This document shows positions 45,093-59,656 of a DNA stretch of 64,000 nucleotides, one piece after another. How positions within the stretch are numbered: the first letter of the stretch is position 1; the number at the start of each line of letters is the position of its first letter. The notes beneath the pieces were generated by a model, which was given only the letters and a program-made list of their open reading frames with translations, ran no database searches and was not told where the DNA came from. The stretch comes from a candidate division NC10 bacterium CSP1-5 (lineage in GTDB: Bacteria; Methylomirabilota; Methylomirabilia; Methylomirabilales; CSP1-5): positions 337,417-401,416 of the forward strand of contig LDXR01000002.1 in assembly GCA_001443495.1 (NCBI GenBank), read 5' to 3'. A program made the translations under genes and the position numbers.

Positions 45093-46880
45093 ATGAAGCG
45101 CAGTGGAGTGCTCTTTCTGATACTGCTTTTACTCCCCTTTTCGGTTTCTGCCAATAAGGATATCCTCACGCTCCAGCAGGATAACAACCAGTGGGTGCTG
45201 CAGCGGCAGAACTACTCCGCCCAGGGGTACAGCACCCTGAACCAGATCACCACGGAGAACGTGAAGAACCTGAAGGTCGCCTGGTCCTTCTCACTCGGGA
45301 CCCTCCAGGGGCAAGAAGGGGGGCCGCTGGTTGTCGGCAGCACGATGTACGTCCACAGCTCCTTTCCGAACAACGTCTACGCCCTCGATCTGACGAAACC
45401 GGGGGCGCCCATCATCTGGAGCTACCACCCCAAACAGGATGCGAAAGCGCCCCCGGTCGCCTGCTGTGACCTCGTCCACCGGGGCTTGAACTATGCCGAG
45501 GGCAAGATCGTCATGAACACCCTCGATGCCCAGGTGATCGCGCTCGACGCCAAGACGGGCAAGGAGCTCTGGAAGATCCGGAATGGCGATCCGGGCAAGG
45601 GTGAGACGTACACCGGGCAGGGCATGATCATCAAGGACAAGTTTATCACCGGGATCTCCGGGGGTGAGTTTGGGGTCCGGGGGTGGGTGGTCGCCTACGA
45701 CCTCAACACCGGCAAGCAGATCTGGAAGGCCTACAGCATGGGGCCGGATGAAGACCTCCGCCTGGCAGCCGACTTCAATAATGCCAACCCCCACTTTGGC
45801 CAGAAGGGCGAGGGGACCAAGACCTGGCCCGGCGAGCAATGGAAGATCGGTGGCGGCACGACCTGGGGCTACTGGTCGTACGATCCTGAGCTCAACCTCT
45901 TCTACTACGGGACTGGGAACCCCGGGACCTGGAACCCCACGCCGCGCAAAGGGGATAACAAGTGGTCCATGACCATCTGGGCCCGCAACCCCGACACCGG
46001 CGAGGCGAAGTGGGCCTACCAGATGACCCCCTGGGACGCGTGGGACTACGACGGGGTTAACGAAGGAATCCTCAGCGAGCAGACCATCAATGGCAAGAAG
46101 TACAAGACCATCACTCACTTCGACCGCAACGGCTTCGGCTACACGCTGGACCGGACCAACGGGACCCTCCTCGTTGCCGAGCCCTTCGTGTACGTGAACT
46201 GGGCCACCGGGATTGACAAGAAGACTGGCCGGCCCATCGAGGTGCCCGCGAAGCGGACCAAGCAGGGGGCCGACACCAAGAACATCTGCCCCTGCGCCAT
46301 GGGGGGTAAGGACCAGCAGCCCGCCGCCTACTCCCCGAAGACCAACCTCTTCTACGTCCCGACCAACAACATGTGCATGAACTATGAGGGGGTCGAGGTC
46401 AAGTACACGGCGGGGGCGGCCTACGTGGGGGCGAACGTCCTCATGTTCTCCGGCCGCGAGGGGAAGGATAACTACCTCGGCGAGTTCATCGCCTGGAATG
46501 GCGCCACTGGGAAGCGGGCGTGGGCGATCAAGGAGAAGTTGCCGGCCTGGAGCGGCGCCCTGGTGACCGCCACGGATATCGTCTTCTACGGTACCATGGA
46601 TGGGTGGTTCAAGGCGGTGAGTGCCAAGGACGGCAAGGAGCTCTGGAAGCACAAGGTCGCCTCCGGCATCATCGCCGTCCCGATGACCTTCGTGGGTCCG
46701 GACAAGAAGCAGTACGTCGCCGTCTACTCCGGGGTCGGCGGCTGGTTCGGCGCCCCGGTGTCGCTCGACCTGCCCCAGGACGATCCCTTCGGCGCCCTGG
46801 GCGCAGTGGGGGTCGCCAAGGAAGCGGGGCTCCACAAGGCCACGACCAAGGGCGGCGTCCTCTACGTGTTCGGGCTGTAA
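45093..46880 (+). CDS. xoxF: Lanthanide-dependent PQQ methanol dehydrogenase
   Basis: Periplasmic oxidation of methanol (to formaldehyde or formate) with PQQ; electrons go to a dedicated cytochrome c. 595 residues, signal peptide ending VSA-NKD (residue 20). Vicinal Cys124-Cys125 (VACCDLVHRG), metal ligands in GGEFGVRG (Glu192) and GTGNPGTWNP (Asn276), catalytic Asp318 and the extra Asp320 of WDYDGVN. Asp320 replaces the Ala of calcium MxaF and marks the lanthanide type. Tryptophan-docking propeller repeats are present throughout. Followed by two terminators, then xoxJ and cytochromes c; no mxaI is present. Confidence 0.96.
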   Translation: MKRSGVLFLILLLLPFSVSANKDILTLQQDNNQWVLQRQNYSAQGYSTLNQITTENVKNLKVAWSFSLGTLQGQEGGPLVVGSTMYVHSSFPNNVYALDLTKPGAPIIWSYHPKQDAKAPPVACCDLVHRGLNYAEGKIVMNTLDAQVIALDAKTGKELWKIRNGDPGKGETYTGQGMIIKDKFITGISGGEFGVRGWVVAYDLNTGKQIWKAYSMGPDEDLRLAADFNNANPHFGQKGEGTKTWPGEQWKIGGGTTWGYWSYDPELNLFYYGTGNPGTWNPTPRKGDNKWSMTIWARNPDTGEAKWAYQMTPWDAWDYDGVNEGILSEQTINGKKYKTITHFDRNGFGYTLDRTNGTLLVAEPFVYVNWATGIDKKTGRPIEVPAKRTKQGADTKNICPCAMGGKDQQPAAYSPKTNLFYVPTNNMCMNYEGVEVKYTAGAAYVGANVLMFSGREGKDNYLGEFIAWNGATGKRAWAIKEKLPAWSGALVTATDIVFYGTMDGWFKAVSAKDGKELWKHKVASGIIAVPMTFVGPDKKQYVAVYSGVGGWFGAPVSLDLPQDDPFGALGAVGVAKEAGLHKATTKGGVLYVFGL

Positions 46881-46890
46881 CAACTAGGCA

Positions 46891-46934
46891 GACCCCGGCG
46901 CCGGTGAGCACCTCTCCGGCGCCGGGTCTTTTTT
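46891..46934 (+). terminator. Rho-independent terminator 1 after xoxF
   Basis: GACCCCGGCGCCGG pairs with CCGGCGCCGGGTC (one bulged C), loop of 11, then six T. Confidence 0.9.
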
Positions 46935-46958
46935 CCCTGTTTCCCTGACAGCTCGATG

Positions 46959-46987
46959 ATCACCCCGCTCCGGCGGGGTGATTTTTT
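46959..46987 (+). terminator. Rho-independent terminator 2 after xoxF
   Basis: Perfect 10-bp stem ATCACCCCGC/GCGGGGTGAT, loop TCCG, then TTTTT. Two consecutive terminators isolate xoxF from xoxJ, so the two genes are probably transcribed at different levels. Confidence 0.9.
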
Positions 46988-47101
46988 CGGTGCGGTGTTT
47001 TCGAATGCATTTCAGTGATCAAAGGTGCAGAATAGGGCGGGTGCGTGCGACGTCTGATGAAGGAGGCAGAGGATGGGGAACGTAGGCCCGGAGAGGGGGG
47101 G

Positions 47102-47998
47102 ATGAGCAGAAAGGTGCGACACCTCGCCGGAGCGCTCCTGCTCCTGATCCCCTCCGTTCTTGTCGGGGAGGCCCAGGGGGCCGAGGTGAAGGAATTGCGC
47201 GTCTGTGCCGATCCCAATAACCTCCCCTACTCGAATGAACGACGGGAAGGATTCGAGAACAAGATCGCCGAACTAGTCGCGAAGGAGTTAGGCGCTAGCC
47301 TCACCTATTACTGGTGGCCGCACCAGCGGGGGCTGGTGAGGAATACGCTGAGCGCCGATCGGTGCGATGTCCTGATCGGGATTCCCAAGGATTACGATCC
47401 GGTCCTGGCAACAAAGCCCTATTACCGCACGGGCTATGTCATCGCCTATCGAAAAGATCGCGGCTTCCAGATCAGATCCCTGGATGATCCGATCCTGAAG
47501 AAAATCAAGATCGGTGTCCATAGCGACACCCCGCCCCACCAGGCGTTGGCCCAAAGAGATCTTATCGGCGACAACCTGGTGCAGTATTCCCTCTTTTACG
47601 GCTGGGCTCACCCGGAGGAGCAACTCGCGAAACCTATCCAGGATCTTATCGGCGGCAAGATCGACGTGGCGATGGTCTGGGGCCCGACCGTCGGATACTA
47701 TGTCAAGAACTGGTCCGCTTCGTTCTTGGAGGTGGTGCCACTCCAGGGGGATGATCCCCACATCCCGCTCGCCTTCGAGATCTCCATGGGGGTCAGAAAG
47801 GCCGATAAAGAGCTCAGGGCCCGGTTGGACGAGGTGCTGAGCACGAGACAGGCCGAGATTAGGAAAATCCTGGAGGAGTACGGCGTGCCGTTGCTGGCTA
47901 CTGGATCCCGGGTAGCATTGCCTCCGGAGGAAGAGCAGCCAGGTCAGATCGAATACCGTCGTTTCGAAAGGGAAGAACTCGCCCCGTCTCCGAGGTAA
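47102..47998 (+). CDS. xoxJ: Periplasmic XoxJ/MxaJ-like solute-binding protein
   Basis: A 298-residue substrate-binding-fold protein. Signal peptide LAGALLLLIPSVLVGEAQGA-EVK. Typical XoxJ strings: LRVCADPNNLPYSNERREGF, YYWWPHQRGLVRNTL, DVLIGIPKDYDPVLATKPYYRTGYV (as KDYDPVLATKPYYR), and VAMVWGPTVGYYVK. XoxJ is thought to help mature or activate XoxF. ATG 47102 follows GGAGAGGGGGG. A short promoter could lie in the 100 bp after the second terminator but was not clear. Confidence 0.9.
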   Translation: MSRKVRHLAGALLLLIPSVLVGEAQGAEVKELRVCADPNNLPYSNERREGFENKIAELVAKELGASLTYYWWPHQRGLVRNTLSADRCDVLIGIPKDYDPVLATKPYYRTGYVIAYRKDRGFQIRSLDDPILKKIKIGVHSDTPPHQALAQRDLIGDNLVQYSLFYGWAHPEEQLAKPIQDLIGGKIDVAMVWGPTVGYYVKNWSASFLEVVPLQGDDPHIPLAFEISMGVRKADKELRARLDEVLSTRQAEIRKILEEYGVPLLATGSRVALPPEEEQPGQIEYRRFEREELAPSPR

Positions 47999-48987: not shown

Positions 48988-49020
48988 ACGCCGCTTTCCT
49001 GCCACAGGGGGTGGCGTTTT
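48988..49020 (+). terminator. Terminator of xoxJ-cytochrome unit
   Basis: ACGCCGC (48988-48994) pairs with GTGGCGT (49011-49017) with one wobble, inner stem CCTG/CAGG, then TTT. A degenerate version of the same sequence follows the first cytochrome gene near 48500-48528. Confidence 0.75.
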
Positions 49021-49226: not shown

Positions 49227-51125
49227 ATGTACAAGACGATCTACGTCCCGGTGGATAACTCCGAGCATTCTAACGCCGCCATCGAGGTAGCGGTCGCCCT
49301 CGGGAGGGCGTTCGGCGCCAATCTCGTCGGAAGCCATGTGTACGCGGCCAGGATGCACGACTACCGGTTCCGCCAGATGGAGTACACGCTGCCGCCCGAG
49401 TACCAGGGCGAAGAGGAGATGGAGAAGCAGCGGAGGATTCACGACTCCCTGATCACTATGGGCCTGCAGCTCATCTCTGACTCGTACCTCGAGGTCATGG
49501 CGCAGAAGGCTGCTGCCGAGGGACTCACTTGCCGAAAGGTGATGATCGACGGCAAGAACTACGCGGAGCTGGTCCGGGACATCCGGGGATCGAACTACGA
49601 CCTGGTTGTGATCGGGGCGTTAGGAATGGGAGCGGTCAAGCCGAGCAGCCTGGGCAGCGTCTGCGAGCGAGTCGTCCGCCGCATCGAGACGGATACCCTC
49701 GTCGTGAAGTCCGTAATCCCGCCCCACGCGCTCCCCGAGGCGCCGATCGTGGTCGGCATCGATGGGAGTCTGCAATCGTACGCCGGCCTGCAAGCGGGCA
49801 TCGCGCTCGGGAAGGCCTTCGACCGCCGGGTGGAGGCGGTGGGGGTGTACGACCCCGTCCTGCACTACACGGTCTTCCACAGCCTCGCCGACATCCTGAC
49901 AGAGAAGGCTGCCAAGGTCTTCAAGTTCAAGGAGCAGGAGCAGCTTCACGAGGAGGTCATCGACACCGGTCTGGCCAAGATCTACCAGTCGCACCTCGAA
50001 GTGGCCAGGGAGGTCGCCCGCGACCAAGGGGTGGACCTGAAGATCACCCTGCTCGACGGGAAGGCCTACGACCGGATCCTGCGGTACGTGCGCCAGACGG
50101 AGGCCTGGATGCTGGTGCTGGGCCGGATCGGCGTCCATAGCGATGATAGGCTGGACATCGGCTCGAACACCGAGAACCTGCTGCGGCTGGCGCCTTGCCA
50201 TGTCCTGATCACGAGCCGGAAGTTCTATCCCCCCATGGACGTCAAGGCGGAGGCCAGCATCGCCTGGACGCCCGAGGCAGAGCAGCGGATGGAGAAGGTG
50301 CCGGGCTTCGTGAAAGCCATCGCCCGGACCGCGGTCCTGCGCTTCGCAATGGAGCGGGGGCACTCGGTGATCACCAACGCCGTGATCGAGCAGGTGATGG
50401 ACATCTTCATGCCTCGCCGAACGGCCGAGAAGGCCCAGAAGCTCGCCTTTGAGTTGGCGGTGGAGCATGTACGCGAATCGGAGATCCCGGCGTACATCTG
50501 TCGGGCGTGTGGGCATACGGTGCGGGGTGTGCAGCCGGCGGTCTGCGTCGTTTGCAACGCGGAGGCAGCGGAGTTCGAGAAGGTGGACAAGATGGCGGTG
50601 GAGGCGCTGGCGGCCTCCGAAGGCGCCATCCGGGACGAGGAGACCTTCGACGGGGTCAAGCTCCGCTGGACGGAGGAGGCGAACCGCGTCTTGCGGATGG
50701 CGCCCTCCGGATACATGCGCCGTCGGGCCAAGGCCCGGATCGAGAAGCTCGCGCGCGTGCAGCAGCTCGAGGTCATCAGCAAGGAGCTGGCGTGGCCGAT
50801 CGTGGCGGAGGTCGTTGAGGAGCAGATGCTGATGCAGGATCGGGATAGCCTGACGCCAGAGCAACACATGCTCCGCGCCACGCGCGCCACGGGCCGAACG
50901 GACGATCTCTTCACCTGGACCGAGGAGGCAGTGGCGCGGCTCCATCGAGTCCCCGAAGGGTACATGCGGGACATGACGAAAAAGCGAGTGGAGGAAGTGG
51001 CCGTGGAGCGCGCGACGCGGGAGATCACGCTGGAGATTGTCGAGGCCGGCATCGAAGCGGGGAAGAAGATCATGTCCGAGCTGATCGAGGCATACAACCG
51101 GACTGGGCAATCGCCCCGGCAGTAG
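49227..51125 (+). CDS. Tandem universal stress protein fused to three PCP_red domains
   Basis: A 632-residue cytosolic protein. Two UspA domains (about 1-160 and 172-330), with VIGALGMGAVKPSSLGSV and ILVxLGRIG-type ATP-loop remnants. Then three copies of the ~45-residue PCP_red domain (C-terminal part of the BchB-type protochlorophyllide reductase subunit) at about 345-395, 468-520 and 563-615: WTPEAEQRMEKVPGFVKAIA, WTEEANRVLRMAPSGYMRRR, WTEEAVARLHRVPEGYMRDM. A rubredoxin-like CRAC...CVVC zinc/iron ribbon (about 423-445) sits between copies 1 and 2. No photosynthesis genes are near. First gene of a run ending in a bd-like oxidase. Confidence 0.85.
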   Translation: MYKTIYVPVDNSEHSNAAIEVAVALGRAFGANLVGSHVYAARMHDYRFRQMEYTLPPEYQGEEEMEKQRRIHDSLITMGLQLISDSYLEVMAQKAAAEGLTCRKVMIDGKNYAELVRDIRGSNYDLVVIGALGMGAVKPSSLGSVCERVVRRIETDTLVVKSVIPPHALPEAPIVVGIDGSLQSYAGLQAGIALGKAFDRRVEAVGVYDPVLHYTVFHSLADILTEKAAKVFKFKEQEQLHEEVIDTGLAKIYQSHLEVAREVARDQGVDLKITLLDGKAYDRILRYVRQTEAWMLVLGRIGVHSDDRLDIGSNTENLLRLAPCHVLITSRKFYPPMDVKAEASIAWTPEAEQRMEKVPGFVKAIARTAVLRFAMERGHSVITNAVIEQVMDIFMPRRTAEKAQKLAFELAVEHVRESEIPAYICRACGHTVRGVQPAVCVVCNAEAAEFEKVDKMAVEALAASEGAIRDEETFDGVKLRWTEEANRVLRMAPSGYMRRRAKARIEKLARVQQLEVISKELAWPIVAEVVEEQMLMQDRDSLTPEQHMLRATRATGRTDDLFTWTEEAVARLHRVPEGYMRDMTKKRVEEVAVERATREITLEIVEAGIEAGKKIMSELIEAYNRTGQSPRQ

Positions 51126-51146
51126 GACTCAGGGTCCGAGGCATCT

Positions 51147-52466
51147 ATGGCCGCCTCTACCCCGTATACCATCTCCTGGAACCTGACCCAGCGCTGCAAC
51201 CAGCGATGCGCGCACTGCTACCTGAGCGCGTTCCCGGGGGCGAGTGCCGCGGAGGAGCTAAGCACCGAGGAATGCTTCCGGGTGGTAGACGAGATCGCCG
51301 AGGTGAACCCGGATGTCTTGCTGATCCTGACCGGCGGCGAGCCACTGCTGCGGACAGACCTGTTCGACCTAGGTGGCTACGCGGCGGACAAGGGATTCAC
51401 CGTCGTCCTGGGGACCAATGGGTTCCTGCTGAAGCAGCAGCACGCCAAGGCGATGCGGCAATCCGGGATCCAGGGGGCGAGCATCAGCCTCGACTCCACC
51501 GACCCCGCCCGCCACGATGCCTTCCGCCGCCTGCCAGGGGCGTGGCGGGGAGCAATCCAGGCCACCGAGGTGCTGCGCGCCGAGGGGCTCCCATTTTCCC
51601 TCCACATGAGCGTGATCGAGTGGAACGTGGAGGAAATCCCGGCCATGATCGACCTCGCTCGTGACCTGGGGGCGCGCGTCCTCAACCTCTTTTTTCTCGT
51701 GCGAACGGGGCGAGGGGAAGGGCTCGTGGACATCACGCCAGCGCAGTACGAGCGGATCCTGACCGACGTCGCCCGGGCGCAAGGGGTTGGCTCGGATGAC
51801 GGCAGCGCCGATGATCCATGGGGCGCGGCGGTGGGGCGGGCAGGGGAGATGCTGATCCGGGCCAAGTGCGCCCCCTTCTTTCGGCGCATCCTCTACGAGC
51901 TCGACCCGGCCTCGCCGCTCTTGAAGAATTTCTCCGAGGGAAGCTGTCCGGCAGGGCGGCATTACTGCCGCATCATGCCGGACGGTGACGTCACTGCGTG
52001 TCCCTATATGCCCGTGGTCGCCGGCAACCTGCGACGGATTCCGTTCGGCACCCTCTGGCGGGACGCACTCCTGTTCACCGACCTGCGCGGTGGGCGCCTG
52101 GGAGGCCGGTGCGGCGCCTGCGAGTTCGCGAAGGTGTGCGGGGGGTGCCGCTGCCGCGCCTATGCCACGTACGGCGACTACCTGGCGGAGGATCCGGCCT
52201 GCGTCTATCAGCCCGGAACCTACGGGGGTCGTGTGATCGAGCTTGCGGCGGATCAGACCTTCGGGATTGCCGCGGAGCCAACACTCACCTGGACCACAGA
52301 GGCTGAGGCCCGACTCAAGCGGGTCCCCGGTTTTGCCCGGGGAATGGTCATCCGGGTCGTGGAACGCGAGGCCCGTGCGCGTGAGCTCGGCGTCGTGACC
52401 GCGGAGCTGATGCAGGAGGTGCGGCAGCGCATGGTGGGCCGCTTCCCCTGGTTCGCTGGCAGATGA
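51147..52466 (+). CDS. Radical SAM/SPASM protein with C-terminal PCP_red domain
   Basis: A 439-residue radical SAM enzyme: NLTQRCNQRCAHCYLSA holds the 4Fe-4S Cys 17, 21 and 24; TGGEPLLR follows. A SPASM-type auxiliary cluster region carries CPAGRHYCRIMPDGDVTACPY (as CPAGRHYCR and DVTACPY), CGACEFAKVCGGCRCRA. The overall pattern resembles NirJ/AhbC/AhbD heme-modifying enzymes. The last 50 residues (LTWTTEAEARLKRVPGFARG) are a PCP_red domain. Twenty-one bp after the stress-protein fusion. A tetrapyrrole or peptide substrate is inferred, not shown. Confidence 0.87.
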   Translation: MAASTPYTISWNLTQRCNQRCAHCYLSAFPGASAAEELSTEECFRVVDEIAEVNPDVLLILTGGEPLLRTDLFDLGGYAADKGFTVVLGTNGFLLKQQHAKAMRQSGIQGASISLDSTDPARHDAFRRLPGAWRGAIQATEVLRAEGLPFSLHMSVIEWNVEEIPAMIDLARDLGARVLNLFFLVRTGRGEGLVDITPAQYERILTDVARAQGVGSDDGSADDPWGAAVGRAGEMLIRAKCAPFFRRILYELDPASPLLKNFSEGSCPAGRHYCRIMPDGDVTACPYMPVVAGNLRRIPFGTLWRDALLFTDLRGGRLGGRCGACEFAKVCGGCRCRAYATYGDYLAEDPACVYQPGTYGGRVIELAADQTFGIAAEPTLTWTTEAEARLKRVPGFARGMVIRVVEREARARELGVVTAELMQEVRQRMVGRFPWFAGR

Positions 52467-52475
52467 GACAGGAGC

Positions 52476-52868
52476 ATGACGTCGCGGGAGTTGAAGTTCC
52501 GCCACGCAGCCTGGGCCTACGCGATCTACGGCGCGTGTTACCTCGGAGGGGCAGTCTACCTCGCCGCCATGGGCGTCGCCCCTCGTGCCCTGACGTCCCG
52601 GGACTGGATCTGGTTTGCCCTGGGCGGCATGATCCTGATCCTTTTTCCGTGGCTGCTCTGGCGGGGGTACACGTGGTTCGCGCGTCTGCTGGTTTTCCTC
52701 ATGGCCTTGCGCGCCTTCGAGGTGTTAAAGATTGCCCTCGCCCCGGGCGTCAAGGACGTGGCCTTGCCCGGGGGCGGGTCGATTCCCATGACCTATGGCG
52801 CGTTGGCGTTCTTCCTGCTGACGGTCGGCGCCGCGGCCGTCGTAGCGCGGGCCGCCTGGGACCTGTGA
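52476..52868 (+). CDS. Small four-helix membrane protein
   Basis: A 130-residue inner-membrane protein with hydrophobic segments at about 12-32, 46-64, 67-85 and 106-126 (for example AWAYAIYGACYLGGAVYLAAM, shortened AYAIYGACYLGGAVYLA; WFALGGMILILFPWLLW). I do not recognise a family. It lies 9 bp after the radical SAM gene and 34 bp before the Mrp gene, so it may anchor the maturation proteins to the membrane where the oxidase resides. Confidence 0.7.
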   Translation: MTSRELKFRHAAWAYAIYGACYLGGAVYLAAMGVAPRALTSRDWIWFALGGMILILFPWLLWRGYTWFARLLVFLMALRAFEVLKIALAPGVKDVALPGGGSIPMTYGALAFFLLTVGAAAVVARAAWDL

Positions 52869-52902
52869 GGTCCCGACAGATGGTTCTCAGGGTGGGATAA
52901 CG

Positions 52903-53793
52903 ATGAAGACATACTGGGACATCGTGGGGGATGGTGGCTCGAACGTCGCCGCGCAAGTCGAGGCGCAAACGGCGCGCCTGCGCGGCCGGATGGCGCATGT
53001 CCGGCGAAAGGTCGCGGTGGTGAGTGGCAAGGGTGGTGTCGGCAAGAGCACCGTGACGGCGAATCTGGCGGTGGCGCTCGCCATGGATGGCCTGCGTATC
53101 GGGGTGCTGGACGCGGACGTGAACGGCCCCTCCATGGCGAAGCTCTTGGGCGTCCGTGGCCGCCCGCTGCGGGCGGGCCCCGATGGGATCCTGCCCCCCG
53201 AGGGACCGATGGGGATCAAGGTGGTGTCCATGGACTTGCTGCTGCCGAGCGACGAGACGCCGGTTGCCTGGCACGGGCCGGCTCAGCAAGAGAGCTTCAT
53301 CTGGCGAGGGATGATAGAGGTGAATGCCCTGCGAGAGTTTCTGGCCGACACCGCATGGGGGGAACTCGACCTCTTACTGGCAGACCTCCCACCGGGAGCA
53401 GACCGGATCAGTCACCTGACCGGCCTGCTTCCTGATCTCACCGGCTGCCTCGTCGTCACTGTGCCATCCGAGGTCTCGCACCTCATTGTCAAGAAGGCGG
53501 TGAGTGCCGTGCGCGACGCCCGGTGGGCGCCGACCCTGGGGCTGGTCGAGAACATGGGGCGATTCACCTGCAAGCACTGCGGCGCTCCCGAGGCGATGTT
53601 CCCGGGGGGCGACACGCGCGCGATGGCGACCGCCATGGGGATCCCATTTCTCGGCAGCATCGACTTCGATCCCCGGCTCGCCGCCGCGTCGGATCGTGGC
53701 GTCCCCTTGGTGCTGAGCCATCCCGATACGCCGGCCGCCGAGGCGCTCGTCCGGATCGCACGGACGATTCACGGCTGGGTGGAGGCCGTATGA
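52903..53793 (+). CDS. Mrp/NBP35-family Fe-S carrier ATPase
   Basis: A 296-residue ParA-like ATPase: deviant Walker A VVSGKGGVGKSTVTANLA (residues 40-57), VLDADVNGPSMAKLLG, LLADLPPGADRIS, and the C-terminal CxxC ENMGRFTCKHCGAPE that bridges a 4Fe-4S cluster between subunits. Such proteins deliver Fe-S clusters. A 30-residue N-terminal extension replaces the usual MIP18-like domain. Overlaps the next gene by 4 bp. In this context it may load clusters into the radical SAM enzyme or another product of the run. Confidence 0.92.
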   Translation: MKTYWDIVGDGGSNVAAQVEAQTARLRGRMAHVRRKVAVVSGKGGVGKSTVTANLAVALAMDGLRIGVLDADVNGPSMAKLLGVRGRPLRAGPDGILPPEGPMGIKVVSMDLLLPSDETPVAWHGPAQQESFIWRGMIEVNALREFLADTAWGELDLLLADLPPGADRISHLTGLLPDLTGCLVVTVPSEVSHLIVKKAVSAVRDARWAPTLGLVENMGRFTCKHCGAPEAMFPGGDTRAMATAMGIPFLGSIDFDPRLAAASDRGVPLVLSHPDTPAAEALVRIARTIHGWVEAV

Positions 53794-54422
53794 AACTCCT
53801 CTGTGTCTCGTGTGACACGCAGATGAAGCTCGAGGAGACCACGGGGCCAGTGGAAGGGTCTCTCAGCGTGAGCTTCGCCTGTCCGAGCTGCGCCCACCGG
53901 ATCGCCCTCCTCACCAACCCGGGGGAGACCCAGCTCGTCCGGGCCCTGGATGTGAAGATCGGCGGCCGCAGCAGTCCAGCGGAGCCCTGGGAGTTCGTCA
54001 GGACCATGCTGGCGGCCAGGGGCGAGGATGTGGGGGCACGCGAAGAGGGCTCTACCGCCTCGGCTGAGCCTGCGTCCCGAGACTTCGGCGAGACTTCGGC
54101 GAGCGGTTCGGCCGAGCAGTTCGGCCCTGAGCTCACTGCCGAAGGGCTCACCGTCGAGGCCTCAGTCGAGTCGCTCAGTCGAGACGCTCAGGCCGAGGGG
54201 CTCGGCGCAGGTCCCCGGTGCCCCTTCTCGGCCGTGGCCAATCGCGCGGCCGAAGCGGCCTCCCTGACGTGGGACCCCTCGGCGGAGAAGCGCCTTGAGC
54301 GCGTTCCCGACTTCATTCGGCCGATGGCCCGCCAGGGCATCGAACGCTTTGCCGCCGAGCGCGGATTCACGCGGATCACCGAAGAGGTCATCGACGAGGT
54401 GCGAGGCACCCTCGGCTTCTGA
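53790..54422 (+). CDS. Zinc-ribbon protein with C-terminal PCP_red domain
   Basis: A 210-residue protein. N-terminal ribbon LLCVSCDTQMKLEE with FACPSCAHRIALL; middle ~70 residues are low-complexity (Ala/Glu/Ser, encoded by repetitive DNA including an exact 11-bp tandem repeat at 54079-54100); C-terminal PCP_red domain LTWDPSAEKRLERVPDFIRP with FTRITEEVIDEV. ATG 53790 overlaps the Mrp stop. Two-CxxC head plus the shared tail suggests a metal or cofactor adaptor that works with the Mrp ATPase. Confidence 0.8.
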   Translation: MKLLCVSCDTQMKLEETTGPVEGSLSVSFACPSCAHRIALLTNPGETQLVRALDVKIGGRSSPAEPWEFVRTMLAARGEDVGAREEGSTASAEPASRDFGETSASGSAEQFGPELTAEGLTVEASVESLSRDAQAEGLGAGPRCPFSAVANRAAEAASLTWDPSAEKRLERVPDFIRPMARQGIERFAAERGFTRITEEVIDEVRGTLGF

Positions 54423-54497
54423 TCCCGCGCCTGGGGGGCCGCCATAGCCGAGGCGGCAGTCGTGCAGCTCGACGTGATAAAGAGCCCGAGCGGCCCA

Positions 54498-56213
54498 ATG
54501 AGAAATTTCCAGACGCGCGCCACCTTGCTCCTTGCGGGAATCCTCCTTGTGGTCGCGGGGCCGGCCTGGGCGCAGGGGACCCCGGGGGGCCAGACCGAGG
54601 CCTATCGGAGCTTTCCCCTGATCGGGAGCCGCCTGGCGGTGTGGGGCGCCGCGCAACTCCACTTGTACTTCGCGGCGTTCATCCTCGGTGTCCCCATGTT
54701 CGCCATCATCGTCGAGTTTATCGGCTGGCGGACGCAGGATACGCGCTACGATTGGCTCGCCCGGCAGTTCATGAAGCTCACCTTCGCCGCCTACTCCGCC
54801 ACCGCACTGCTGGGAGGCCTTCTCACGTTTATCTTTATCACCCTGTACCCCCGCTTCTTTGGCTACCTGGTCGAGATCTTCGGGCCGACCATGTGGATGT
54901 ACGCCGGCCTCTTCTTCGTCGAGACGTTCACGCTCTACCTCTATTACTATGGCTGGGACTGGCTCAGCGGGCCGCGGAAAGGGATCCACCTGGGCCTGGG
55001 GGTCCTCCTCAACATCTGGGGGACGATCCTCATGTTTGTGGCCAACGCCTGGCTCACGTTCATGATGTCACCCAGCGGGGTGGACGAGGCGGGCAAGCTC
55101 ACCAGCCTGTGGGGTGCGATCTATAACCCCACGTGGATGCCGATCAATGTCCATCGGCTGATCGCCAACATCACCTTCGGGGGCGCCATTGTGGCCGCCT
55201 ACGCCGCGTTCCGTTTCCTCGGGGCCCGCACCGACGAGGAACGCGCCCAGTACGACTGGATGGGGTATGTGGGGAACTTCGTGGCGGTCTCGTCCCTGCT
55301 CTTTCTCCCCTTTGCCGGCTACTGGCTGGGCCGCGAGATCTACGCCTTCAACCAGACGATGGGCATCACGATGATGGGCGGATTCATGTCCTGGCTCTGG
55401 GTGGTCCAGGCCATTCTGATCGGGGTGCTCTTTATCGGTTCAAACTACTACCTCTGGCTCGGGATGGAGCGGATCCCCGGCTCGGAGCGCTATCGACCGT
55501 ATATTCCATACCTGGTCATGATCCTGGCAGCGGGGTTTATCGTGTGGGCCACACCCCGGAGCATGGTGGCGACCCTCGAGGAAACCAGGGCCATGGGAGG
55601 GACTCACCACCCGGTCCTCGGCGTGCTGGGCGTCATGTCGGCCAAGAACACCGCCGTCAATTTGATGATCCTGACCACTTTTGTGTCGTTCCTCCTCTAC
55701 CGGCGGGCCAACCGCGTCGCCACCGTATCCTGGGTCCGGTCCGGCATGACAGCCCAATGGATCATCATGGGGGTGGCCGCGGCGGTCGTGACCTTCTACG
55801 GCGTGTACGGTTACTTCGTGGAGTCCATTGTCCGGATCGGGTTCTCCGTCTACCAGGTGCTGTCGGTGCTGGCGGCCATCGTCTGTGTCATGGCCATCGA
55901 CTTCCCGATGTTCCGGCGAGCGCGCTCCACCGGAGCGATCCGCTGGGGGCAGATCGCCCCGCGCTCCCAGTACGTCTTGATCCTGCTGGCCGTCAGCTTC
56001 ACATGGCTCATGGGACTTATGGGTTTCGCCCGCTCGGGCATCCGCCAACACTGGCATGTCTACGGCATCCTCCGGGACACCTCCCCCGAGGCGGTGACGC
56101 CGGCCTTGGGGTACGCGGCCAACATGATCACCGCCGTCACGGCGATCTTCCTCGCCTTCGTCGTCCTCATCTTCTGGTTGGGGGGGCTCGGGGAAAGGGG
56201 AGCGAAAGGATAG
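54498..56213 (+). CDS. CydA-like bd-type oxidase subunit I with signal peptide
   Basis: A 571-residue polytopic membrane protein. Unusual cleavable-looking N-terminus ATLLLAGILLVVAGPAWA-QG (a GTG at 54462 is an alternative start). CydA core: His55 in AAQLHLYFAAFILGVP (b595-type ligand), Glu142 in FFVETFTLYLYYYGWDW (aligns with E. coli Glu107; the Glu99 position is not acidic), His219 in NVHRLIANITFGGA (b558-type ligand). About 13-14 helices. The long periplasmic Q-loop of quinol oxidases is not evident and no cydB follows; instead three cytochrome c genes do. Best read as a non-canonical, cytochrome-linked bd-superfamily member. Confidence 0.85.
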   Translation: MRNFQTRATLLLAGILLVVAGPAWAQGTPGGQTEAYRSFPLIGSRLAVWGAAQLHLYFAAFILGVPMFAIIVEFIGWRTQDTRYDWLARQFMKLTFAAYSATALLGGLLTFIFITLYPRFFGYLVEIFGPTMWMYAGLFFVETFTLYLYYYGWDWLSGPRKGIHLGLGVLLNIWGTILMFVANAWLTFMMSPSGVDEAGKLTSLWGAIYNPTWMPINVHRLIANITFGGAIVAAYAAFRFLGARTDEERAQYDWMGYVGNFVAVSSLLFLPFAGYWLGREIYAFNQTMGITMMGGFMSWLWVVQAILIGVLFIGSNYYLWLGMERIPGSERYRPYIPYLVMILAAGFIVWATPRSMVATLEETRAMGGTHHPVLGVLGVMSAKNTAVNLMILTTFVSFLLYRRANRVATVSWVRSGMTAQWIIMGVAAAVVTFYGVYGYFVESIVRIGFSVYQVLSVLAAIVCVMAIDFPMFRRARSTGAIRWGQIAPRSQYVLILLAVSFTWLMGLMGFARSGIRQHWHVYGILRDTSPEAVTPALGYAANMITAVTAIFLAFVVLIFWLGGLGERGAKG

Positions 56214-56220
56214 AACCCCC

Positions 56221-57066
56221 ATGCGCGTGCCGCTCATCGTCAAAGTTGGGACCTTCGCGTTAGCGGTGATGGGCGTCTATGCCTACTATGCGAACTCGAT
56301 CCCCCAGATCCAGTCCACGCTCCCCGAGGAACTCTCCCTGGAAGGCGGAAATGTGACGCCGGAGCAACTCGTCAAAGCGGGCGAGGGAATCTTCAAGGGG
56401 AAGGGGACGTGCGAGATCTGCCACCGGATCGGCCAGAAGGGGACCCGTGCCCCCGACCTGGCCGGGATTGGGGCGGCGGCGGCCAAGCGGAAGCCTGGGA
56501 TGAGCGCGAAGGCCTACATTATCGAGTCCCTGCTCGATCCTGGGGCTTATCTGGTGGAGGGCTACCCCGGCATCATGCCGAAGGTGGACCGGCCTCCCAT
56601 TGGGCTGAACCGCTCCGAGCTGTGGGCCACTGTCGCCTTCCTCCAGTCCATGGCCGGGACGGTGGACGTGAAGCTGGACGACATCCCGAAGACCGCTGGT
56701 GCGGTCGTTGGGGCCGAGGGGGCCGCCCAGGGTGCCGAGCTGAAGCTGCCCGGCGATCCCAAGGCCGGCCAGGTGGTCTTCATGGGGAAGGGCGCCTGCA
56801 TCGCCTGCCACAAGGCCGGCGCCATCGGCGCCTCACCCATTGGACCGGACCTCTCCCAGATTGCCAAGATCCAGACCCCCGAGTACATCATGGCCAAGAT
56901 CCTGGACCCTGCCGGGATGGGAACGGTGGCGGGCTATCCGCCCAACCTGATGCCCCCGACCCTCGGCCAGACCCTGACCGCCAAAGAGTATATCGACCTG
57001 GTTTCGTTCCTCCTCACCCTCAAGGGTGAGGCTTCCGCTCAAGCCCCCGCCGCGAGCAAACGATGA
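56221..57066 (+). CDS. Membrane-anchored diheme cytochrome c
   Basis: A 281-residue protein with one N-terminal transmembrane anchor (VGTFALAVMGVYAYYA), then two class I cytochrome c domains: CEICH (64-68) with Met in PGIMPKV, and CIACH (193-197) with Met in PNLMPPT. A flexible Ala/Glu-rich linker joins them. Seven bp after the CydA-like gene and overlapping the next by 4 bp, so it is a likely stable subunit passing electrons to the oxidase. Confidence 0.92.
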   Translation: MRVPLIVKVGTFALAVMGVYAYYANSIPQIQSTLPEELSLEGGNVTPEQLVKAGEGIFKGKGTCEICHRIGQKGTRAPDLAGIGAAAAKRKPGMSAKAYIIESLLDPGAYLVEGYPGIMPKVDRPPIGLNRSELWATVAFLQSMAGTVDVKLDDIPKTAGAVVGAEGAAQGAELKLPGDPKAGQVVFMGKGACIACHKAGAIGASPIGPDLSQIAKIQTPEYIMAKILDPAGMGTVAGYPPNLMPPTLGQTLTAKEYIDLVSFLLTLKGEASAQAPAASKR

Positions 57067-59246
57067 TCCTCCTCCGGTCGAAGTTTCTCCGGGCGGTACT
57101 GGTTCTGGTGCTCACGTTCCTCTTTTTCCGATTCGGGATCCGGCCGCCCGCGCCCTGGAGCGTGCTCAAGCTCTACATGGCGATCGTGTTGGTCGCGGTT
57201 TTGGTCTATGTCTCCTCCGATTCCGATTCGTGGCGGGCCTTCCTCGCCCCCGTCCGCTCCACGCTGGCGGACGATTCGAGGCGCCCGATCCGGTTTGCCG
57301 TGATGGTCCTGCTGCCGAGCTTCTTCGGGTACTACGCCTACACGCAGGCGGCGGGGAAGGTCGAGGCGCCTGCCGAGCTCCGCGCGGTCCATCCGGCCCC
57401 CCCGGCCTCGATCTCGTTCAGGGGGAAGACCATCGACATCCAGGGGCTCGAGAACCCCCTTCGGAAGGACGCCGCCAACTTCAACAAGTATGTGGCGGAG
57501 GGCGCGGTGATCTACGCCAAGAACTGCCTGTTCTGCCACGGCGACAACCTGGATGGTGCCGGCCACTTCGCCCACGCCTTCAACCCGCCCCCTGCCAACT
57601 TTACGGACCCGGGGACCATCGCTATGCTGCAGGAGGCCTTCCTCTTCTGGCGGATCGCCAAGGGAGGACCGGGGCTGCCGAAGGAGTCCGCGCCCTGGAA
57701 CTCGGTCATGCCCGCCTGGGAGGATCGGTTGACCGAAGAAGAGATCTGGAAGGTGATCCTGTACCTGTACGACGCCACGGGCTACCAGCCGCGCCGCTGG
57801 GAGACTCAGGCCTCTGCGGCCGGGCGCCTGGGCCCAGCGGTGGCGGAGGCCCAGCAGCCCGGCGATGCCACCGCGGGGAAGGCGATCTACGAGAAGAAAT
57901 GCGCCGTCTGCCACGGCATCGAGGGGAAGGGGGATGGCCCTGCGGCGGGCCAGCTCGATCCCAGGCCGCGCGACTTCACCAGAGGCCTGTACAAGATCCG
58001 CACGACCCCTTCGGGGAACCCGCCGACGGACCAGGACCTGTTCAGGGTCATTACGGAGGGCATCCCGGGAACATCGATGCCGGCGTGGACTGTCATTCCT
58101 GAAAAGGACCGGTGGAACCTGGTCGCTTACCTCAAGATCTTTGCACCCGACAAGTTCAAGGAGCCGCCGAGGGTGGCGGATCTCCCAAAGGAGGTTGTCT
58201 CCTCCAAGGAGTCCATCGCGCGAGGCAAGGAGATGTTCGAGGCGATTGAGTGCAACAAATGCCACGGCAACGGGGGGCGTGGGGACGGCCCTTCAGCGCC
58301 CGAGCTCAAGGACGACTGGGGAAACCCCATTCGTCCCGCCACCCTGACCAAGTCCTGGACGTTCCGGGGAGGGGCGAGCACCAGGGAGATTGCCACCCGA
58401 CTGGCGACCGGCCTGATGGGGACCCCCATGCCGTCATTTGCGGACGCCGTTGAGGACCCCGAGGACATTTGGCACCTCGCCAATTACGTGAGGTCGCTTG
58501 GGCCGGAGGGACCCAATTTCGCCACGATCCTCCTGGTTGAGGCTGTGCAGGGAGAGATCCCCGATGATCCCACCGCGTCGTTCTGGCTGCGCCGAGTCCC
58601 CACCACGTTCCCACTGGGCGGCCAGGTGATCGTGGACCCTCGGAACTTCAATCCCTCCATCGACATGATCGCGGTGCGGGCGGTCTATTCTGAGACCGAG
58701 ATCGCCTTCCACCTCACTTGGGATGACCCCACAGCCTCCAAGCCGGCTCCGCGGGGCAAGACGTTCGCAGACCAAGTGGCCCTCCAATTTCCGGCCCGGC
58801 TGCTGGAGGGGACGGAGCGTCCGTACATCCTCATGGGGGCGAGCGCCAATCCGGTCTACCTGTTGCGTTGGAACTCAAAGGGTGGAGTGGGGGAGGCGAA
58901 CGCCACCGGGATAGGCAAGCTCGTCCCACAGAAGGGGGACGCGGTCCAAGCCAAGGGGAAGGTCCTGTTCATGGACGGTCAGTACCGCCTGGTCATCAAA
59001 CGCCCAAGAGTGACCAAGGACTCGAACGACCTCGAGTTTCCGGTCGGGCGGTTCCTCTCGGTGGCCTTTATGGCCTGGGATGGGGATAGCGGGGAGGCTG
59101 GGAGCAAGATGTCACTCTCCTCCTGGTACTATCTTCATCTCGAGCCACCGCCATCCAGGGCGCGCTGGGTCTATCCGCCTCTGGTGGCCCTTGGCGTCCT
59201 CGGGCTCGAGTTGTGGGGGCTCCGGTGGGCCCGGCGTCGGGCGTAG
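57063..59246 (+). CDS. Triheme cytochrome c fused to EB_dh heme b domain
   Basis: A 727-residue membrane protein. Three N-terminal helices (about 10-26, 35-52, 76-94), then three cytochrome c domains with CLFCH (155), CAVCH (280) and CNKCH (397). Next comes an ethylbenzene dehydrogenase gamma-like (EB_dh) domain (about 495-700; FHLTWDDPTASKP, FLSVAFMAWDGDSGE) that usually binds heme b, and a C-terminal helix WVYPPLVALGVLGLELWGL. One polypeptide could carry four hemes along the outer membrane face. Similar heme-b gamma domains occur with nitrite oxidoreductase and related molybdoenzymes, but no molybdoenzyme is encoded here. Confidence 0.88.
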   Translation: MILLRSKFLRAVLVLVLTFLFFRFGIRPPAPWSVLKLYMAIVLVAVLVYVSSDSDSWRAFLAPVRSTLADDSRRPIRFAVMVLLPSFFGYYAYTQAAGKVEAPAELRAVHPAPPASISFRGKTIDIQGLENPLRKDAANFNKYVAEGAVIYAKNCLFCHGDNLDGAGHFAHAFNPPPANFTDPGTIAMLQEAFLFWRIAKGGPGLPKESAPWNSVMPAWEDRLTEEEIWKVILYLYDATGYQPRRWETQASAAGRLGPAVAEAQQPGDATAGKAIYEKKCAVCHGIEGKGDGPAAGQLDPRPRDFTRGLYKIRTTPSGNPPTDQDLFRVITEGIPGTSMPAWTVIPEKDRWNLVAYLKIFAPDKFKEPPRVADLPKEVVSSKESIARGKEMFEAIECNKCHGNGGRGDGPSAPELKDDWGNPIRPATLTKSWTFRGGASTREIATRLATGLMGTPMPSFADAVEDPEDIWHLANYVRSLGPEGPNFATILLVEAVQGEIPDDPTASFWLRRVPTTFPLGGQVIVDPRNFNPSIDMIAVRAVYSETEIAFHLTWDDPTASKPAPRGKTFADQVALQFPARLLEGTERPYILMGASANPVYLLRWNSKGGVGEANATGIGKLVPQKGDAVQAKGKVLFMDGQYRLVIKRPRVTKDSNDLEFPVGRFLSVAFMAWDGDSGEAGSKMSLSSWYYLHLEPPPSRARWVYPPLVALGVLGLELWGLRWARRRA

Positions 59247-59287: not shown

Positions 59288-59656
59288 GTGCGCATGAGCT
59301 GGATTGTTTGGCTGGTCGTCGCAGTGGTCCTGCTGCCGGGAATCGCGTGGGGTGCCGGAGACGCGGCGAAAGGGAAGGAGAAGTACCAGGAGCTCTGTGC
59401 GGCGTGTCACGGGGCCTCGGGCAAGGGCGACGGCCCGGCGGCGCCCGCCCTGCCGACCACGCCCCGTGACCATACTGACGTGGCCTACATGGACAAGCTC
59501 ACGGATGAGCAAGTGTTTAACATCATCAAGACCGGTGGGGCAGCCGCCGGGAAATCACCGCTGATGCCTGCGTGGGGAGGCCCACCCCCCAAGCTGAGCG
59601 ACCAACAGATCGAGGACCTGGTTGCCTATATCCGGACTCTGGCCCGTGCCAAATAG
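59288..59656 (+). CDS. Monoheme cytochrome c
   Basis: A 122-residue exported cytochrome: signal IVWLVVAVVLLPGIAWG-AGD, heme motif CAACH (about residue 37), Met ligand in SPLMPAWG, C-terminal helix IEDLVAYIRTLA. GTG 59288 is seven bases after GGAGG; ATG 59294 is the alternative. Forty-one bp after the triheme gene; soluble and small, so a candidate shuttle between upstream dehydrogenases (for example XoxF) and the membrane cytochromes. Confidence 0.9.
   Translation: MRMSWIVWLVVAVVLLPGIAWGAGDAAKGKEKYQELCAACHGASGKGDGPAAPALPTTPRDHTDVAYMDKLTDEQVFNIIKTGGAAAGKSPLMPAWGGPPPKLSDQQIEDLVAYIRTLARAK

Follow-up and report, generated by a model that had tools for sequence, protein, structure and literature searches.

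The C-terminal domain of BchB/ChlB, a small helical domain known as PCP_red (PF08369), belongs to the DPOR system of chlorophyll synthesis, in which BchB partners the P-loop Fe-S ATPase BchL and acts on a tetrapyrrole. In the literature that we searched, mostly papers outside subscription, one paper mentions PF08369 and none was found to use the terms ‘PCP reductase’ or ‘PCP_red domain’. Nitrite-oxidising and comammox Nitrospira have a terminal oxidase of the bd-like group; to our knowledge no route for the assembly of this oxidase has been described. The O2 affinity of the Nitrospira enzyme has been described as unknown (PMC12342949). Here we analyse a locus of the candidate division NC10 bacterium CSP1-5, in which genes for PCP_red proteins immediately precede a bd-like oxidase gene (Table 1). 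All positions refer to the window, i.e. the whole stretch of 64,000 nt that was analysed.

The Pfam profile search found five PCP_red domains in three co-directional proteins: three matches in a 632-aa Usp fusion (97.9 bits in all), one at the C-terminus of a 439-aa radical SAM/SPASM protein (52.5 bits) and one at the C-terminus of a zinc-ribbon protein. All three proteins exceed the Pfam cut-off of 32.5 bits, while the middle repeat of the Usp fusion, scored singly, reaches 32.2 bits, slightly below it. The profile matches thus bear out an earlier note on this DNA, made from the letters alone, which had placed three copies of the domain in a stress-protein fusion and one each at the C-termini of the other two proteins. 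A search of the whole 2.77 Mb genome returned these five domains only, within a span of 4.1 kb; with no further PCP_red frame in the genome, BchB is absent.

Between 49227 and 59246 all genes share one direction, with intergenic gaps of at most 75 nt. A terminator-like hairpin lies upstream of the module and none was found in the gaps between these genes; judged from this layout, a single transcript from the PCP_red module into the oxidase is plausible. The start of the zinc-ribbon gene was set, from the sequence and its homologues, at the ATG (53790) that overlaps the Mrp stop codon rather than at the mechanically assigned GTG (53523). Each Usp domain of the fusion carries the motif G-2x-G-9x-G[ST]. 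The 130-aa membrane protein had no family match in the profile searches. A PQQ-dependent dehydrogenase of the methanol/ethanol family and a MoxJ-like binding protein are encoded directly upstream of the module (45093-47998), and this order is retained in two other loci (L036 and L038).

Table 1. Features of the PCP_red module and of the oxidase genes that follow it (window positions)
Feature	Position	Strand	Evidence
Terminator-like hairpin; would terminate the cytochrome c unit ahead of it	48988..49017	+	11-pair stem and T-rich tail, consensus match only
USP3P: two Usp domains, PCP_red, rubredoxin-like CxxCG..CxxC ribbon, PCP_red, PCP_red	49227..51125	+	PF00582 and PF08369 x3 above cut-off; PF21349 below cut-off
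Radical SAM/SPASM enzyme with C-terminal PCP_red	51147..52466	+	PF04055, PF13186 and PF08369 above cut-off; NirJ2/AhbD-like, below cut-offs; own clade
130-aa membrane protein, recurs in module	52476..52868	+	About three hydrophobic segments; homologues between radical SAM and Mrp genes
Mrp/NBP35-type P-loop ATPase with CxxC (FTCKHCG)	52903..53793	+	PF10609 245.6 bits; motifs
Zinc-ribbon protein with C-terminal PCP_red	53790..54422	+	PF08369 57.8 bits
Cytochrome bd-like oxidase subunit I; start GTG 54462 or ATG 54498	54462..56213	+	PF01654 66.2 bits; alignment to CydA 5doq; invariant His columns
c-type cytochrome, two heme-binding domains, oxidase partner	56221..57066	+	PF00034 in two stretches; recurrent order
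Membrane protein, three cytochrome c domains and ethylbenzene dehydrogenase gamma-like domain	57063..59246	+	PF13442 x3, PF09459; TIGR03477 below cut-off
Small cytochrome c; possible last gene of unit	59288..59656	+	PF00034

The CydA-like protein is subunit I of an oxidase of the cytochrome bd superfamily: its H55 is aligned with the first-helix His of CydA (5doq), and H55 and H219 are invariant among homologues. The three-cytochrome fusion encoded two genes downstream resembles heme subunits of the nitrite oxidoreductase type.

A profile built on the repeated segment was run against one genome per species and gave 226 confirmed loci; the 80 listed come from Methylomirabilota, Rokubacteria, Entotheonella, KSB1, Nitrospirota and soil Chloroflexi. 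PCP_red was found in 33 of 60 relatives, mostly in five copies, and the relatives' loci that were read contain the same three architectures. Conservation of the neighbourhood, which the earlier note had proposed to search for, therefore reaches far beyond the source genome. The profile matches and this recurrence rule out chance or a local artefact as the origin of the cluster; remnant photosynthesis was rejected on the absence of BchB and on the architectures common to five groups. Proteins that combine PCP_red with Usp are encoded in Methylomirabilota/Rokubacteria, Entotheonella, KSB1, soil Chloroflexi and Nitrospirota, comammox organisms among them. Nitrospira genomes have 11-12 copies spread over several proteins. 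In the soil Chloroflexi examined PCP_red is confined to the Usp protein, and a radical SAM protein with the domain was not found among them.

The occurrence of PCP_red follows that of the oxidase. Among 70 Methylomirabilota genomes 46 have both, three PCP_red only, one the oxidase only and 20 neither; contrasts in which PCP_red and the oxidase are together present or absent are seen even within single genera (g1, g14 and g6). Among 148 Nitrospirota genomes PCP_red is present in all 68 that have the oxidase (E 1e-60 or better, a threshold different from that used for Methylomirabilota), 12 have PCP_red only and 68 neither; the oxidase list of 68 was compared by hand with the PCP_red list of 80. 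Fisher P-values, uncorrected for shared ancestry, are 2e-13 for Methylomirabilota and 4e-30 for Nitrospirota. We also took 18 PCP_red genomes, one of an unplaced bacterium and the others behind the KSB1, Entotheonella, Chloroflexi and Nitrospirota loci; every one of them has the oxidase. Two Nitrospirota genomes (G102 and G108) have a Usp/PCP_red–radical SAM pair without a strong oxidase match. Several of the Nitrospirota genomes with PCP_red only have a single copy in a protein of 333-375 aa, so that PCP_red is not always a marker of the module; in some of these (L231-L234) this protein stands in unrelated context and the rest of the module is absent. The co-occurrence with the CydA-like gene that the earlier note had wanted checked is thus very strong in both phyla, and we hold with high confidence that the PCP_red proteins are associated with the bd-like oxidase. 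A control, COX1 of the aa3 oxidase, was present in 55 of 60 relatives, including 24 of the 27 without PCP_red, and so does not track the module.

The PCP_red proteins are also physically linked to the oxidase in several phyla. Rokubacteria and Entotheonella have a common order on one strand (L243, L244): the bd-like oxidase, cytochrome c, cytochrome/EB_dh proteins, coxB, coxA, ctaA, ctaB, cox subunits III and IV, DUF983, Usp/PCP_red and then Mrp, with radical SAM and membrane genes inserted between Usp/PCP_red and Mrp in Rokubacteria. Here the module lies 3′ of the aa3 operon, which had first suggested the aa3 oxidase as its partner; this candidate was dropped, since almost all of the relatives have aa3 and the same cox operon directly follows the bd-like oxidase. 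In KSB1 (L113) the oxidase group is followed by Usp/PCP_red and then the radical SAM gene. In eight Nitrospirota genomes the oxidase is preceded, at a distance of about 1 kb, by a gene for a protein with two PCP_red domains, an order read in L197, L199, L211, L213 and L240. In Chloroflexi Usp/PCP_red is followed by an ABC transporter, two CydA-like genes and genes for a Rieske protein and cytochrome b, the last two identified from their sequences. In Nitrospira the Usp/PCP_red–radical SAM pair adjoins a methyl-plastoquinone methyltransferase gene rather than the oxidase: in L133 (6241-8774) and most Nitrospira loci an MpqE gene and an slr0320-related B12-binding radical SAM gene stand ahead of Usp/PCP_red. 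A gene judged similar by eye stands ahead of a short zinc-ribbon/PCP_red gene in L227-L229.

In a few genomes, four in number, PCP_red genes lie beside heme biosynthesis genes, all of which were assigned by matches above an equivalog cut-off. The order hemE-hemH-zinc-ribbon/PCP_red-3xPCP_red is found in a genome of the same genus (L039), and a Nitrospirota locus (L236) has the order Usp/PCP_red-radical SAM (with three PCP_red)-hemY; a PCP_red gene adjoins hemY in L205 and lies within ∼5 kb of hemY and hemH in L214. The hemE-hemH locus of the window genome itself (L245) has no PCP_red gene. Small DUF4149/CopD-like membrane proteins are encoded beside hemE or within the oxidase cluster (L039:9704-10114, L245:9351-9755 and L115:7590-8120); the L115 protein matches UPF0093 (HemJ) weakly and is a possible protoporphyrinogen oxidase.

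These data bring us to a conserved accessory module that may handle or modify heme for a cytochrome c-linked bd-like oxidase, an explanation that we consider about equally likely to be right or wrong. Its two parts differ in standing: the association with the oxidase is strong, while the heme handling or modification step is one that we infer. PCP_red would be the common docking domain through which the ATP-binding Usp scaffold, the zinc-ribbon protein and the AhbD/NirJ-like radical SAM enzyme could work on one and the same heme, or on a precursor of it; Mrp would drive assembly in the lineages that carry it, and the radical SAM enzyme might make a modified heme, by analogy with NirJ and heme d1. 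This last step would be optional, given the Chloroflexi examined. Against the explanation stand this gap in the Chloroflexi, the CxxC motif missing from Mrp in many Rokubacteria, a PCP_red domain lacking conserved ligand residues, the small number of hem neighbourhoods and the PCP_red-free hemE-hemH locus of the window genome, as well as G102, G108 and the position of the Nitrospira pair next to the methyltransferase gene. The constant part is the Usp/PCP_red scaffold with the oxidase, and the radical SAM, Mrp and zinc-ribbon partners vary, a pattern that fits assembly or heme handling better than a fixed biosynthetic pathway.

The earlier note had suggested PCP_red as a docking or ligand-holding tag. 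The second role finds no support in the alignment of the domain, where W, T, E, R, P and G are invariant and no conserved Cys, His or Met was found. The fold matches solved DPOR PCP_red domains (2kru, Z 8.6; 2ynm_D, Z 7.2, rmsd 1.1 over 49). The search with the three-domain PCP_red model also returned RuvB and MCM chains (Z 7-8), matches that we take as a common helical arrangement.

The radical SAM protein is a member of the radical SAM/SPASM superfamily by its PF04055 and PF13186 matches, and the cysteines of its CX3CX2C motif (C17, C21, C24) are invariant in 40 homologues. Its nearest sequence models are those of the tetrapyrrole-modifying NirJ2 (TIGR04055, 302.8 bits) and AhbD (TIGR04545, 294-298 bits), both with a cut-off of 500 bits. 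Ferrochelatase is present in G000 (278 bits); G008, without ferrochelatase, has a separate AhbD-like protein (467.5 bits); and G040 has ferrochelatase, no PCP_red and no AhbD-like match better than E 1.9e-19. Scores below both cut-offs, together with the coexistence with ferrochelatase or a separate AhbD-like protein, rule out the PCP_red enzyme as a general synthase for bulk heme b. The predicted structure (pLDDT 86.9, pTM 0.87) is compact and matches SPASM enzymes; among the SPASM structures listed the nearest were SuiB (Z 27.6), SkfB (Z 26.0) and PqqE (Z 25.9), i.e. peptide-modifying enzymes and PqqE. This similarity, and a PCP_red domain without ligand residues, would suit an enzyme whose substrate is a peptide or a subunit of the oxidase and not a tetrapyrrole, with PCP_red as a protein-recognition domain; set against the NirJ2 and AhbD models and the hem gene neighbourhoods, we regard this as unlikely.

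Mrp invites another explanation, that the set assembles Fe-S clusters for a respiratory complex, with Mrp as the carrier and the zinc-ribbon/PCP_red proteins as adaptors. The Mrp gene adjoins the zinc-ribbon/PCP_red gene, and the CxxC loop is retained in 22 homologues, including that of the window; against this, the loop is deleted in 39 of 61, and the oxidase and its cytochromes match heme-protein families only, which makes the explanation improbable in our judgement. L051, L055 and other Rokubacteria are among the genomes with the loop deleted, and Walker A is retained in 58 of 60 module copies. With the Mrp motif so often lost and the Chloroflexi PCP_red confined to the Usp protein, neither the Mrp nor the radical SAM partner is universal. 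The suggestion of the earlier note that the module binds or modifies a tetrapyrrole or Fe-S cofactor has gained a tetrapyrrole link, through the hemE-hemH-PCP_red and Usp/PCP_red-radical SAM-hemY orders, and is borne out in part, with either heme or Fe-S as the possible cofactor.

Of all parts of the module the Usp/PCP_red protein has the widest occurrence, and the first ATP-binding motif of its Usp scaffold is present in 101 of 106 homologues. Both facts would agree with a set of regulatory proteins that respond to ATP and redox state, tune the oxidase under stress and have no part in maturation, but the radical SAM and Mrp partners and the hem neighbourhoods would then be left unexplained, and we give this proposal little credence. 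A quinone-related module, suggested by the Nitrospira gene order and by an MpqE match above cut-off in L133, is very improbable, since the module occurs in several other groups while methyl-plastoquinone is reported from a late Nitrospirota lineage only (PMC13386864), and no mpq genes were recognised beside the module in the other loci read, the MpqE model having been run on the Nitrospira copy only.

The heme-accessory explanation can be carried a step further. The oxidases of Nitrospira, Rokubacteria and others might carry a novel modified heme, made by the PCP_red radical SAM enzyme and inserted by the PCP_red scaffold; we regard this as doubtful, and if true it would amount to a second, non-photosynthetic tetrapyrrole pathway with a domain common to chlorophyll synthesis. 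The evidence points to a previously undescribed PCP_red helper system for the heme of the bd-like oxidase. In the two sampled phyla 114 of 115 oxidase-bearing genomes contain the gene set, which offers direct candidates for oxidase assembly or for its cofactor, and a domain classed under chlorophyll synthesis proves to have a broad link of its own to aerobic respiration.

The CydA-like subunit is likened to the Nitrospira bd-like (OR-N) oxidases by identity rather than by tree placement, being 45-47% identical to Nitrospira homologues encoded 3′ of a PCP_red gene. The radical SAM enzyme shares its superfamily with the heme b synthase AhbD and with NirJ and NirJ2, and most of its length is covered by alignment to the AhbD and NirJ2 models; it differs in scoring 180-310 bits against the 500-bit cut-off, in its C-terminal PCP_red domain, in occurring alongside ferrochelatase and in forming, in the tree, a clade of its own (100/100 support) beside AhbD-like proteins of the same order. 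The window Mrp has the Walker A motif and CxxC of the Mrp/NBP35/ApbC Fe-S carriers, and belongs with Mrp/NBP35; it differs in scoring below the MrpORP and ApbC cut-offs, and most Rokubacteria copies lack CxxC. Finally, PCP_red itself is the same small helical domain as that of DPOR BchB/ChlB (2kru, 2ynm), but the full-length BchB model (TIGR01278) gives 58.2 bits against 490, with the C-terminal segment alone aligned: the window proteins are not BchB, and in place of a nitrogenase-like catalytic domain they have PCP_red fused to Usp, a zinc ribbon or a radical SAM enzyme.
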